Source of the DNA: Arsukibacterium sp. UBA3155
GTDB taxonomy: Bacteria > Pseudomonadota > Gammaproteobacteria > Enterobacterales > Alteromonadaceae
Assembly (NCBI GenBank): GCA_002364615.1
Contig: DEYP01000026.1
Coordinates: 118,488-182,487, forward strand
Length of the DNA: 64,000 bases
Direction of reading: 5' to 3'
Part shown: one piece after another, positions 24,316 through 52,981 of the stretch
How the letters are laid out: each line of letters opens with the position of its first letter
How positions within the stretch are numbered: position 1 is the stretch's first letter
Notes under the pieces: model-generated
Database searches by the model: none
Told to the model about the DNA's origin: nothing
The model's input: only the letters and a program-made list of their open reading frames with translations
Position numbers and translations under genes: made by a program

Positions 24316-25005
24316 ATGATCCACAAACAAAAGCACCGCTCGCATCGCATTGGCTGGCTCCGCGCAGCGGTGCTGGGCGCAAATGATGGCATTGTATCAA
24401 CCGCCAGTCTGATTATTGGCGTGGCTGCCGCCAGTACCACGCATGCCAGTGTCATGCTGGCGGGTGTTGCCGGCCTGGTTGCCGGGGCAATGTCGATGGC
24501 AGCAGGTGAGTATGTATCTGTGAGCTCGCAGGCGGATACTGAACAGGCGGATCTTGAGCTGGAAAAAATATCATTGGCCCAGAACCCACTGAGCGAACAA
24601 AATGAGCTGGCTGAAATTTACCGGAAAAGAGGAATAGCGCCGGATCTGGCACATAAAGTTGCCGGGCAACTCATGGCGCACGATGCGTTGGGCGCGCATG
24701 CCCGCGACGAAATTGGCATTTCAGCTACAGGCACTGCCCGGCCTGTTCAGGCTGCACTCTCCTCTGCTGCAACCTTTACCATAGGCGCTGCTCTGCCACT
24801 GCTGGTTGCCTGGGTGATGCCCGGCTCCTATCTGATTTACGCCGTTGCTTTATTCTCGCTATGTTTTCTAGCGGGCCTGGGTGCACTTGCCGCGCACGCA
24901 GGCGGTGCTCCCCGCGCGCGAGGTGCAGCAAGGGTTACCTTTTGGGGCGCGCTGGCAATGGCACTGACCGCGCTGGTTGGCAGTATTTTTCGGGTGGCGG
25001 TCTGA
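24316..25005 (+). CDS. VIT1/CCC1-family Fe2+/Mn2+ transporter
   Basis: This 229-residue protein has five membrane helices and the VIT signature: LRAAVLGANDGIVSTASLIIGVAAA, then AGAMSMAAGEYVSVSSQADTE, with acidic residues continuing into a cytoplasmic helix (LELEKISLAQNPLSEQNELAEIYRKRG). VIT/CCC1 proteins move Fe2+ or Mn2+ out of the cytoplasm in exchange for protons. It lies 66 nt downstream of the LTA-synthase-like gene on the same strand and might be co-transcribed. This is of interest because PmrAB-type systems respond to iron. Confidence 0.88.
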   Translation: MIHKQKHRSHRIGWLRAAVLGANDGIVSTASLIIGVAAASTTHASVMLAGVAGLVAGAMSMAAGEYVSVSSQADTEQADLELEKISLAQNPLSEQNELAEIYRKRGIAPDLAHKVAGQLMAHDALGAHARDEIGISATGTARPVQAALSSAATFTIGAALPLLVAWVMPGSYLIYAVALFSLCFLAGLGALAAHAGGAPRARGAARVTFWGALAMALTALVGSIFRVAV

Positions 25006-25207: not shown

Positions 25208-25699
25208 ATGCAGTATTGGAAAATAAGTGGCTTGCTAATCGGGTTTTTGCTCAGTTGCCTGACAGTTAGCAGCGTTTCGGCGACAGAGCTCAGCGATTTG
25301 CCGGGCAGCCCGGTTAGTACTATGCAGCAGTTGAACGGCAAAGTCGTGCTGGTCGACTTCTGGGCGTCGTGGTGTGCACCTTGTCGCAAGTCATTTCCCT
25401 GGTTGAACACGATGCACCAGCAATACGCAGAGCGCGGTTTACTGGTGCTGGCGGTAAATGAAGATAGCGATCGTGCACAGGCCAGCCGGTTTTTGCAGCA
25501 AGTGCCAGCGCAGTTTGCGGTGCTGTATGACAGCAACGGCACTGTAGCAGAGAAATTTCAGTTGCCCGGCATGCCCAGTAGCTTTTTGATTGATAAAAAA
25601 GGCCAGGTCCGTTACCGCCATATTGGTTTTAAACAGGCGGATATTGCTGACTATGAAGCCAAGATCCGCCAATTACTGGCAGAGGAGTCGCTCGAATGA
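25208..25699 (+). CDS. TlpA-like thioredoxin, exported
   Basis: This 163-residue protein has a signal peptide (cleavage likely after VSA near residue 25) and a thioredoxin domain of the TlpA/ResA type: VVLVDFWASWCAPCRKSF with redox C56 and C59, then NEDSDRAQASRFLQQ and a cis-Pro loop LPGMPSSFLIDKKG. It would act as a periplasmic thiol reductant. It is the first gene of a four-gene operon and overlaps the DUF4266 gene by ATGA, so its likely client is the cysteine pair at the end of that lipoprotein (inference). Confidence 0.88.
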   Translation: MQYWKISGLLIGFLLSCLTVSSVSATELSDLPGSPVSTMQQLNGKVVLVDFWASWCAPCRKSFPWLNTMHQQYAERGLLVLAVNEDSDRAQASRFLQQVPAQFAVLYDSNGTVAEKFQLPGMPSSFLIDKKGQVRYRHIGFKQADIADYEAKIRQLLAEESLE

Positions 25700-25926
25700 A
25701 ACTGAAAAAAATATTAGGTGCTGGCCTGACACTCTTGCTGCTTAGCCAGCTGACTGCATGCAGTACTTTGGGTGTTAAACCGTGGCAGCGTGACACGCTG
25801 GCTAAAGAAGAAATGGCTCTAAACAGTGCACCATTAGACAACCGGTTGGATGACCATATTTATTTTAGTAAAGAAGGCAGCAGCGGTGGCCGCAGCTTTG
25901 CCGGTGGAGGTTGCGGATGCAATTAA
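25696..25926 (+). CDS. DUF4266 lipoprotein with C-terminal CGC
   Basis: This 76-residue protein has a lipoprotein signal (LLLLSQLTAC, lipidated Cys about residue 22) and a mature part of only about 55 residues. It matches DUF4266: KPWQRDTLAKEEMALN, then DDHIYFSKEGSSGGRSFAGGGCGCN at the end. The conserved Gly-rich tail with a C-G-C pair is the striking feature; it could be a redox or metal site, or an attachment point. The GGAGG of its own tail codons doubles as the ribosome binding site of the next gene. Function is unknown. Confidence 0.82.
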   Translation: MKLKKILGAGLTLLLLSQLTACSTLGVKPWQRDTLAKEEMALNSAPLDNRLDDHIYFSKEGSSGGRSFAGGGCGCN

Positions 25927-27206
25927 AACAACTGGCAAATATCAGCATGGCGCTGGCAGCGGCCAGCTGTGCTGCACTGGGTCAACAAGCCGAGGCGGGC
26001 ACCTTACTGGATGACTGGCAGTTTAACAGCGCTATTTTGCTGTATAACGAGACCGATCGGGTGAGTGCCGGCGAAGGTATTCTGACAGCACGCGGCGATT
26101 TTGGTGATGATAAATATCTTAATCTGGGGCTGGTGGTGGACGCACTGACCGGCGCATCGGCTACTGGTGCTGTGGCGCAACCTTACGTGCAAAGTTTTAC
26201 CCGGCCATCAGGGCGTGGCAGCTATGATGTCGCAGCCGGCGTTACACCGATGGATGACACCTTTCATGACACCCGGGTGCAGCTGGACGCCAGTTGGGAG
26301 CAGCCGATAGCAGCAAATTGGCGGGCTAGCGGCGGTGGTCATTTATCAAAAGAGTATGATTATTTATCGATGGGACTTAATGGCTCTCTGGCGCGGGATT
26401 TTAACCAAAAAAACACCACCGTATCGTTGGGGCTAGGCTACAGCCACGACACCATTTCACCTGAAGGTGGTATTGCCGCAGCCTTTGCGCCGATGCTGTT
26501 GCGCAGCGACTATGCCGATGACAGCAGTTATCAGGCGGCGTTTGACGCGACACGCGATCGCGCCGATGATACCAAAGATACACTTGATGTGTTGTTAGGC
26601 CTGACCCAGGTAATTAACCGCAACTGGTTAATGCAGCTGAACTATTCATTCAGCCTGGCCGATGGCTATATGACCGACCCGTTTAAGTTGGTGAGTGTGA
26701 TAAATGCCAATGGTGAAGTACAGCAAAACCTGTACGAAAGCCGGCCGGACCAGCGCACTAAGCACAGTTTATACTGGCAGAATAAACTACATGTTCGCGG
26801 CAGCTACCTGGATGCATCTTACCGCTATATGTGGGATGACTGGGAACTGTCATCACATACGGCGGATTTGAAATGGCGGTTGCCAATGACAGACCGATGG
26901 TATATCGAACCACAGTTCCGATACTATCAGCAAAGTGCGGCAGAGTTTTATCAACCGTTTATATTGCAGGCTGAACCATTGCCGCAATATGTCAGTGCCG
27001 ATTACCGCATTGGTAAAATGAATACCTACACCCTGGGAGCAAAATTTGGCACTAAGTTGGCGCAAGGCAATGAGCTATCATTTCGGATAGCGCTATACCA
27101 GCAGAACCCACAAAATGATGGTGTGGCTGCACCGGGTGTATTGGCGAATGTTGAACTGTACGAAAAAGTGACCGCGGTGATGGCTCAGGTAAGCTATTCT
27201 TTTTAG
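25917..27206 (+). CDS. DUF3570 outer-membrane protein with flavinylation-like motif
   Basis: The ATG at 25917 is chosen because GGAGG ends six bases upstream; an in-frame TTG two codons earlier lies too close to that site. The 429-residue protein has a signal peptide (cleavage after QQAEA) and then alternating beta strands rich in aromatic residues ending in VMAQVSYSF, typical of an outer-membrane barrel. It matches DUF3570. Near residues 75-83 it carries DALTGASAT, which resembles the Dxx(S/T)GA(S/T)x(S/T) motif to which ApbE attaches FMN. It overlaps the DUF4266 gene by 10 bp. Confidence 0.82.
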   Translation: MQLKQLANISMALAAASCAALGQQAEAGTLLDDWQFNSAILLYNETDRVSAGEGILTARGDFGDDKYLNLGLVVDALTGASATGAVAQPYVQSFTRPSGRGSYDVAAGVTPMDDTFHDTRVQLDASWEQPIAANWRASGGGHLSKEYDYLSMGLNGSLARDFNQKNTTVSLGLGYSHDTISPEGGIAAAFAPMLLRSDYADDSSYQAAFDATRDRADDTKDTLDVLLGLTQVINRNWLMQLNYSFSLADGYMTDPFKLVSVINANGEVQQNLYESRPDQRTKHSLYWQNKLHVRGSYLDASYRYMWDDWELSSHTADLKWRLPMTDRWYIEPQFRYYQQSAAEFYQPFILQAEPLPQYVSADYRIGKMNTYTLGAKFGTKLAQGNELSFRIALYQQNPQNDGVAAPGVLANVELYEKVTAVMAQVSYSF

Positions 27207-27229
27207 GTTACAATTGGCAAGGAGGGCCA

Positions 27230-28129
27230 ATGGTCGCTATTGCTGTTAATGCCGGGAAAAATTGTACAGTCGGCCAGTTCCGTGCCATGGCCAGCCCCTG
27301 CGAAATATTGCTGGAGGCACCAAACATGAGCTTATGCCGGCAGTTAACGCAGCTCGCCGCCGCTGAAACTGAACGCATTGAACAAAAATACAGCCGCTAT
27401 CGTCGCAGCAGTGTACTAAGCCAGCTGAACCGCAATGCCGGCAGCTGGCAAACACTGGATCCAGAAACCTCGCAGCTGCTGGCGTTTGCTGACAGCTGCT
27501 ATCAATTGAGTGATGGCTTATTTGATATTAGCAGCGGCATTTTACGCCGGATCTGGACATTTGATGGCTCAGACAAGCTGGCCAGCCAATCGAAAATTGA
27601 TGCCTTGCTGCCCCATGTTGGCTGGGACAAAGTTCTGCGCGACACTAACCGTATTATGCTGCCCTATGCTATGGAGCTGGATCTGGGCGGCATTGCCAAG
27701 GAATATGCGGTAGATAAAGTATTGCAGTTGCTTAGTCAGCAATTTGCTGCAGATGATCTGCCAAGTCTGGTGGTTAACTTTGGCGGTGACATGCGCTGCA
27801 GCCGGCCAAGAGAGGACGGCACGTTATGGCGTATAGGTATTGAAAACCCCACATTGGCCGATCAGGCAATTTCGGCCGTTGGTCTGAGTAAAGGGGCACT
27901 TGCCAGCAGTGGAGACAGCCGACGCTTTTTACTGAAAGATGGCACGCGTTATAGCCATATTCTTCACCCAAAAACCGGCTGGCCTATTACTGATGCGCCA
28001 CGTTCCGTCACCGTCGCTGCACCAAATTGTCTGCTGGCAGGCATGTTGGCGACGACTGCCTTGTTGCACGGCAGTCACGCTGAAGCCTTTTTACAGGCGC
28101 AGCACTGCCAATACTGGTTAGTAATGTAA
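27230..28129 (+). CDS. apbE: FAD:protein FMN transferase
   Basis: This 299-residue protein has the ApbE features: MASPCEILL near the start, IEQKYSRYRRSSVLSQLNRNAG, SDGLFDISSGILRRIW, ELDLGGIAKEYAVDK and SSGDSRRFLLKDGTRYSHILHPKTGWPI. ApbE takes FMN from FAD and attaches it to a Thr or Ser of a target protein. Unlike many ApbE proteins it shows no clear signal peptide, yet its presumed target is exported; the start is well supported by GGAGGG, so this is a real puzzle. It is last in the TlpA-DUF4266-DUF3570 operon. Confidence 0.9.
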   Translation: MVAIAVNAGKNCTVGQFRAMASPCEILLEAPNMSLCRQLTQLAAAETERIEQKYSRYRRSSVLSQLNRNAGSWQTLDPETSQLLAFADSCYQLSDGLFDISSGILRRIWTFDGSDKLASQSKIDALLPHVGWDKVLRDTNRIMLPYAMELDLGGIAKEYAVDKVLQLLSQQFAADDLPSLVVNFGGDMRCSRPREDGTLWRIGIENPTLADQAISAVGLSKGALASSGDSRRFLLKDGTRYSHILHPKTGWPITDAPRSVTVAAPNCLLAGMLATTALLHGSHAEAFLQAQHCQYWLVM

Positions 28130-52672: not shown

Positions 52673-52981
52673 ATGTACGCGGTTTTCCAAAGTGGTGGCA
52701 AACAACACCGTGTGACGGAAGGTCAAACGCTTCGTCTAGAAAAACTAGACTTAGAAACCGGCGCAACGATTGAATTTACCCCGCTGATGATCGCCAATGG
52801 CGAAGAAATTAGCATCGGTGCCCCTTTAGTTGAAGGTGGCAAGGTAGTAGCGGAAGTGGTCAATCATGGCCGTGGCGATAAGCTTAAAATCGTTAAATTC
52901 CGTCGTCGTAAACATTCACGTAAACAGATGGGTCACCGTCAATGGTTTACTGAAGTTAAAATTACCAGCATCAGCGCGTAA
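52673..52981 (+). CDS. rplU: 50S ribosomal protein L21
   Basis: This 102-residue protein starts [14 protein letters not shown] with GGAG eight bases upstream. Conserved features include the [31 protein letters not shown] tail region that binds 23S rRNA. rpmA follows 15 nt later. Confidence 0.97.

Follow-up and report, generated by a model that had tools for sequence, protein, structure and literature searches.

A TlpA-DUF4266-DUF3570-ApbE operon of Arsukibacterium encoding a predicted single-site flavinylated outer-membrane barrel and an ApbE without recognisable signal peptide

Background

Covalent attachment of flavin mononucleotide (FMN) to a DUF3570 protein was reported by Meheust et al. 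2021 (eLife, PMC8238504). According to the passages of that paper available to us, the DUF3570 protein of Chlorobium luteolum was flavinylated by its own ApbE in E. coli, and both of its [S/T]GA[S/T] motifs were modified, the sites being mapped by Ser-to-Ala changes. The same passages place DUF3570 in gene clusters with DsbD, thioredoxin-like proteins and DUF4266, whose CXC may cycle, and count 316 clusters without DsbD and 25 DUF3570 clusters with VIT1. In the available main text the words 'barrel' and 'porin' are absent and 'outer membrane' appears once, for siderophore transporters. Within the literature searched, DUF3570 and DUF4266 are named in this paper only; the portion of PMC11334425 at hand does not mention DUF3570, and PMC4767422 had no match to terms for metal sites.

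Here we analysed a stretch of 64,000 nucleotides from Arsukibacterium sp. UBA3155 (GCA_002364615.1, contig DEYP01000026.1, positions 118,488 to 182,487; 'the window'), which carries a TlpA-DUF4266-DUF3570-ApbE operon. As read from its sequence, this operon belongs to the known flavin system as a form with a single site, and the central interpretation has thus already been published by Meheust et al. in the passages cited. An earlier reading of the same DNA (the original prediction) stated that DUF3570 and DUF4266 occur near ApbE, which that paper shows to be correct.

A conserved flavinylation motif in DUF3570

The DUF3570 gene (25917..27206, + strand; Pfam 8.4e-157, 522.8 bits against a cut-off of 25) encodes a predicted 16-stranded outer-membrane beta-barrel. 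Residues 75-81 read DALTGAS (26139..26159, +), with Ser81 as the predicted FMN-carrying residue. The original prediction had singled out DALTGASAT near residue 75 as flavinylation-like, and the alignment of homologues proposed along with it upholds that view. A profile scan of genome contigs picked up 534 candidate stretches with 519 relatives among them; we retained the best 80, the closest being from Arsukibacterium and Rheinheimera. At the site, D-x-x-[ST]-G-x-S is found in 80/80 relatives and the strict form D-x-x-[ST]-G-A-[ST] in 78/80, the exceptions being DSLTGSS (L106) and DSLTGPS (L103). Across the 75 aligned DUF3570 proteins of alignment A2, D75, L77, G79 and S81 show zero entropy. 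A2 comprises the window and 74 of the 80 loci; L032, L035, L057, L082, L085 and L103 were left out, L103 being the only one of these with GPS. A further alignment, A3, holds the window and 51 of the 80 loci.

A lone match to D..[ST]GA[ST] is not very rare, as it arose in 462 of 100,000 shuffles of DUF3570 residues 28-429 (0.46%), and conservation is therefore the real test. In a wider set covering other genera, 39 of 47 class A barrels had the strict motif, and six (L004, L005, L015, L029, L125, L149) had Ser in place of Ala. Among the operon proteins the motif is carried by DUF3570 alone. The motif lies within strand 3 of the structural model and barrels of a second class (class B, see below) commonly have Ser for its Gly, as might be expected if the motif had arisen by chance, or served only the structure of the beta-strand, and bound no flavin. 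Against this stand the pattern in 80/80 loci, the ApbE of the operon and, in the available passages of PMC8238504, the mapped flavinylation of a relative, so that we regard a flavin-free motif as very improbable. Taken together with the barrel model, the same evidence makes it well supported that the window DUF3570 is a covalently flavinylated outer-membrane protein.

A further match to D..[ST]GA[ST] in the window, DLETGAT at 52748 (+), lies in a 124-residue open frame.

The window protein has one [S/T]GA[S/T] motif, not two as in C. luteolum. In DUF3570 proteins of another type, namely L122, L126 and L127, a second site follows the first at a distance of 20-21 residues; at the corresponding place, 20 residues on, the window has S98-G99-R100-G101 (26208..26219, +), which from alignment and spacing is probably a degenerate second site. 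A2 shows no variation at S98 and G99, but the A-[ST] that would complete a second motif is absent. We infer from these sequences that the window protein carries a single FMN. As a rule for class A, one site was rejected, given that the class A member L124 has a second SGAS.

Operon structure and gene content

The four genes follow head to tail on the + strand in the order TlpA, DUF4266, DUF3570, ApbE. Pfam matches and coordinates bear out the statement of the original prediction that ApbE, a TlpA thioredoxin and a small CGC lipoprotein share the operon. The first gene (25208..25699, +) encodes a TlpA/ResA-like thioredoxin with WCAPC and a hydrophobic N-terminal segment (hydropathy 2.59); its Pfam matches are Redoxin (1e-23) and AhpC-TSA (1.3e-20), with PF13899 absent among them. 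It is followed by the DUF4266 lipoprotein (25696..25926, +; Pfam 7.6e-24), which has the lipobox LTAC, read by eye, and a tail ending in GGGCGCN. The DUF4266 start overlaps the TlpA end via ATGA, and the DUF3570 ATG lies inside the final DUF4266 codons, GGATGCAATTAA. An ATG is found at the same overlap place in 51/80 relatives; a TTG at 25911 is an alternative open reading frame start two codons 5' of the DUF3570 ATG.

In the retained loci, DUF4266 was located just 5' of DUF3570 in 80/80, ApbE was present in 71/80 and TlpA in 69/80. When 369 genomes of the class were searched, DUF3570 was found in 95 and DUF4266 in 90; all 90 were DUF3570 genomes (90/95), and none of the 274 others had DUF4266 (0/274). 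The pairing of DUF3570 with DUF4266 is close to obligate.

Predicted position of the flavin in the barrel

An AlphaFold2 model of DUF3570 built with 75 sequences had a mean pLDDT (predicted local distance difference test score) of 88.5 and, by our own count, which omits short strands within loops, sixteen barrel strands. Together with the signal peptide, this even-stranded fold marks the protein, by prediction, as an outer-membrane beta-barrel. Judged from the alternation of strands, the loops 83-111, 181-217, 251-278, 340-367 and 399-417, all of them long, lie on one side and the termini on the other; as is usual for outer-membrane proteins, the side of the loops is taken to be extracellular. 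Strand 3 bears the motif at its outer end. Hydrophobicity was used to divide each strand into two faces, of which the less hydrophobic one was more conserved in 15/16 strands (mean entropy 0.77 vs 1.58), and D75, L77, G79 and S81 sit on that face. In the model, Ser81 is probably lumen-facing near the outer mouth of the barrel.

In the PDB, no sequence relative of DUF3570 was found at E-values of up to 1. The 50 matches listed of 860 in a Foldseek search of the PDB were generic barrels (FadL, Mtr complex chain B, TonB receptors; query template modelling scores 0.32-0.48), and a specific fold relative was accordingly dropped as a candidate.

An ApbE without signal peptide

The last gene (27230..28129, +; PF02424, 1.9e-66, 224.8 bits against a cut-off of 25.6) encodes an ApbE FMN transferase with neither the signal peptide nor the lipobox of an exported ApbE. 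It begins 18 residues ahead of the conserved AMAS, and by hydropathy, which was used here and not SignalP, no signal segment is encoded in frame between its start and the previous stop. Neither this feature nor the single canonical site had been remarked on in the original prediction. In the set of 72 operon ApbEs (the window and 71 relatives), a hydrophobic 12-mer above 1.6 precedes the domain in two (L063, L068), both times in an N-terminal extension of the longest open reading frame; by this measure 69/71 relatives have a signal-less ApbE. As a control, the same measure exceeded 1.6 in 48/52 DUF4266 proteins and in 36/40 DUF3570 rows of A2 starting with Met. ApbEs fetched elsewhere in the class exceeded 2.0 in 29/31 cases, and those beside class B barrels in 5/5 judged; the 31 include L192 and L193 from the same genome as well as L209 and L215, which repeat class B neighbours, and ApbEs near L121, L162 and L181 that are truncated by the end of a fragment were left out.

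The operon ApbEs also share unusual residues. In the DxGGxxKEY motif, K-E replaces K-G in 72/72; the window has GIAKE, and the exported ApbEs in the alignment mostly have GIAKG or close variants. Glu was found in 0/18 readable outside ApbEs, the pattern being unread in 13/31. At the place of the triad Asp (Asp285 of Vibrio cholerae ApbE), located by its distance of 28 residues from the catalytic His and by aligning exported ApbEs that have Asp, [AS]-G stands in 72/72 by alignment, and the window has Gly; by pattern, Gly was read in 65/72 (7/72 unread). Another 38 signal-less ApbEs in DUF3570 loci comprised 35 with Glu and Gly and three with Glu where the second position was unread. Triad Ser, triad His and the FAD-binding (flavin adenine dinucleotide) DxGG motifs are intact in the operon ApbE.

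According to the available text of a review (PMC12052999), a linear motif of seven residues suffices for ApbE, which makes an unfolded precursor a feasible substrate. Since a signal-less ApbE is linked to an exported barrel, FMN attachment before export is implied, and from these sequences we consider this order of events likely. It could instead be that another, exported ApbE attaches the FMN in the periplasm and the operon ApbE is inactive or serves a cytosolic target: the genome has two further ApbEs with hydrophobic N-termini (L192, L193), and Gly stands where the triad Asp is expected. On the other hand, the operon enzyme keeps Ser, His and the DxGG motifs, DUF3570 is the sole operon protein bearing the motif, and ApbE is present in 71/80 loci, always of the signal-less type except for the two with N-terminal extensions. 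The invariance of K-E (72/72) together with Gly at the Asp place suggests a functional ApbE subtype, and we hold periplasmic attachment to be unlikely.

The DUF4266 tail and a second DUF3570 operon

GGCGCN forms the C-terminus of DUF4266 in 80/80 relatives, with GGGCGCN in the window. The AlphaFold2 model of DUF4266 was poor (mean pLDDT 63.3, residues 63-76 below 50), and the tail is predicted to be disordered. No Cys follows residue 35 of DUF3570 in 75/75 aligned sequences, so that the mature barrel is cysteine-free and the CGC tail could exchange electrons there with the flavin only. DsbD is not encoded within the cluster; the genome has two DsbD_TM proteins on other contigs (C21 and C1, the window being on C3). 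A thiol relay via TlpA and the CGC tail, which was part of the original prediction and is also suggested in the available passages of PMC8238504, is plausible.

The same genome contains a second TlpA-DUF4266-DUF3570 operon with a class B barrel, DUF3570B (contig C5, L112:250-12502). It also encodes an HZS-alpha-like diheme protein (868 residues, two CxxCH, HZS_alpha domain), SH3/OMP-like (outer membrane protein-like) proteins and further envelope proteins including a TPR protein. Its DUF3570B motif is DTVSGAS, and the nearest ApbE, 16 kb off, has a hydrophobic N-terminus. Classes were compared in 104 DUF3570 rows from fetched loci, without the window, six duplicate loci and rows of at most 95 bits or 700 bases. 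As the first loci had flanks of only 1.5 kb, the neighbour counts are lower bounds: an HZS-alpha-like gene within 6.5 kb in 38/49 class B rows, ApbE within 2.5 kb in 5/49 class B vs 31/47 class A rows, and a thioredoxin-like gene in 45/49 class B and 35/47 class A rows. At the aligned site, read from the rows, class B has D-x-[IVM]-[ST]-S-A-[ST] in 35/49, keeps Gly in 5/49 and differs otherwise in 9/49; some 'strict' motif matches in class B fall outside this site. We did not conclude that class B is flavin-free, since 24 class B hits, picked from genomes also searched for ApbE (excluding weak or partial hits in G076 and G136), had an ApbE within 30 kb in 10/24 and somewhere in the genome in 24/24.

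CXC motifs also bind metals. A tail that binds metal or aids barrel folding, with no electron relay to the flavin, would fit the observation that CGC is kept in 43/43 DUF4266 proteins found across the 49 class B loci, where the flavin motif is usually altered (35/49 [ST]SA[ST]). The accompanying thioredoxin-like genes in both classes, however, fit thiol chemistry, and we consider a tail without a redox role somewhat unlikely.

A more far-reaching proposal, which we judge somewhat less likely than not, is tentative: a distinct signal-less ApbE subtype (GIAKE, Asp to Gly) might flavinylate barrel precursors in the cytosol, and the covalent flavoprotein might cross Sec to form a lumen-lined, cytochrome-free conduit fed by the CGC arm, with DUF3570B operons (exported ApbEs, diheme partner) as the periplasmically flavinylated counterpart.

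Besides these classes, a third form, DUF3570C (L113, L114, L115), has about 900 residues and DTWSGATP, and is accompanied in the fetched stretch by a DUF4266 ending in CGCY and a signal-less ApbE.

Neighbouring genes and the metal question

A VIT1-family transporter gene (24316..25005, +) lies directly upstream of the operon on the same strand. VIT1 was found in only 4/80 relatives, L032-L035 (Arsukibacterium), at two different positions, and was dropped as a core partner. In the fetched DNA a response regulator was present in 46/80 and a kinase in 41/80 loci. Genes for a cupredoxin, a weakly EfeU-like membrane protein and a 252-residue protein were found in 22/80 loci (e.g. L047:7287-9115), mostly after ApbE and the two-component pair and in some loci before TlpA. 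The 266-residue neighbour scored only 18.4 bits where the curated EfeU cut-off is 255; its identity as FTR1/EfeU was rejected and the match taken as a hint only. Iron sensing by the neighbouring two-component system was likewise dropped; ExxE occurred in the putative periplasmic part of 27/52 kinases.

A role of the operon as a ferric reductase that assimilates iron in connection with its uptake would be in keeping with the adjoining VIT1, the 25 DUF3570 clusters with VIT1 in the cited passages of PMC8238504 and the cupredoxin/EfeU-like set. Yet the rarity of VIT1, the EfeU score and kinases that reveal no clear iron sensor speak against such a role, which we hold to be unlikely. The neighbours suggest metal-related regulation without establishing it, and a role in metal reduction is a guess. 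Of the module envisaged by the original prediction, the flavinylated outer-membrane protein is thus well supported and the thiol relay plausible, whereas metal reduction found nothing beyond these neighbourhood hints (VIT1 in 4/80, cupredoxin and EfeU-like protein in 22/80).

Proposed mechanism

We propose that ApbE acts in the cytosol, where it would attach FMN to Ser81 while the DUF3570 precursor is still unfolded, after which Sec would export the flavinylated precursor and insertion in the outer membrane would follow. The FMN would end in the barrel lumen close to the extracellular mouth. In the periplasm, a DsbD-type protein whose gene lies elsewhere in the genome would re-reduce TlpA, and TlpA would hand electrons on to the DUF4266 lipoprotein at its flexible CGC tail; the tail may enter the barrel from the periplasm and reduce the FMN, which could pass electrons to a cell-surface acceptor. 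We assign this overall mechanism a probability of about 0.6.

Several points weigh against it. The flavin and redox role of this DUF3570 is predicted by homology, and shuffling alone produces the motif in 0.46% of cases. No ApbE was found in 9/80 loci and no TlpA in 11/80, although some contigs end early. Apart from the six class A barrels with Ser for Ala, 2/47 break the motif further (L136 DVLIGAS, L145 DVMTGPS). The signal-less state of ApbE is judged from hydropathy, and the triad Asp that it lacks is described as conserved in the passages seen of PMC12052999, so that its activity is not certain. Sec passage of FMN-bearing side chains is an assumption, and the inward orientation of S81 is based on residue alternation in the model, not on coordinates.

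If the mechanism holds, electrons could cross the outer membrane via a flavin-loaded barrel and not via multiheme cytochromes, and it would follow that FMN stays covalently bound through export by Sec. For marine Alteromonadales and Shewanella, a one-site cysteine-free barrel and a 76-residue CGC lipoprotein would then offer a small system in which to test electron transfer from thiol to flavin at the cell surface.

Comparison with known systems

Like the clusters of Meheust et al., the window combines a DUF3570 domain bearing at least one [S/T]GA[S/T] with ApbE, a thioredoxin-like protein and DUF4266. The protein families, the CXC end of DUF4266 and the occasional VIT1 are alike, and flavinylation by ApbE is described for theirs. 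The window differs, as far as the available passages go, in its one canonical site, in a thioredoxin of the Redoxin/AhpC-TSA type where theirs is PF13899, and in having no adjacent DsbD. Its ApbE is signal-less, a property on which the passages seen are silent for theirs.

V. cholerae ApbE, which flavinylates NqrC (PMC12052999, in the parts available), belongs to the same family and shares the triad Ser and His; the window enzyme differs in having no lipoprotein signal, Gly at the Asp285 place, and GIAKE. Cytosolic ApbEs exist according to the same text, e.g. in Klebsiella pneumoniae, with a soluble fumarate reductase as target. The K. pneumoniae enzyme is also signal-less, but its target is soluble, whereas here it would be an exported outer-membrane barrel.

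With the DUF3570B operon of its own genome the window operon shares TlpA, DUF4266 with CGC, and DUF3570; the former adds the HZS-alpha-like diheme protein and envelope genes, and its nearest ApbE is 16 kb away. Compared with the described systems, what is new here, and mostly inferred, is the lumenal site model, the cysteine-free barrel, the single site, the signal-less ApbE and the second operon; of these, it is the lumenal site and the signal-less subtype of ApbE that merit testing.

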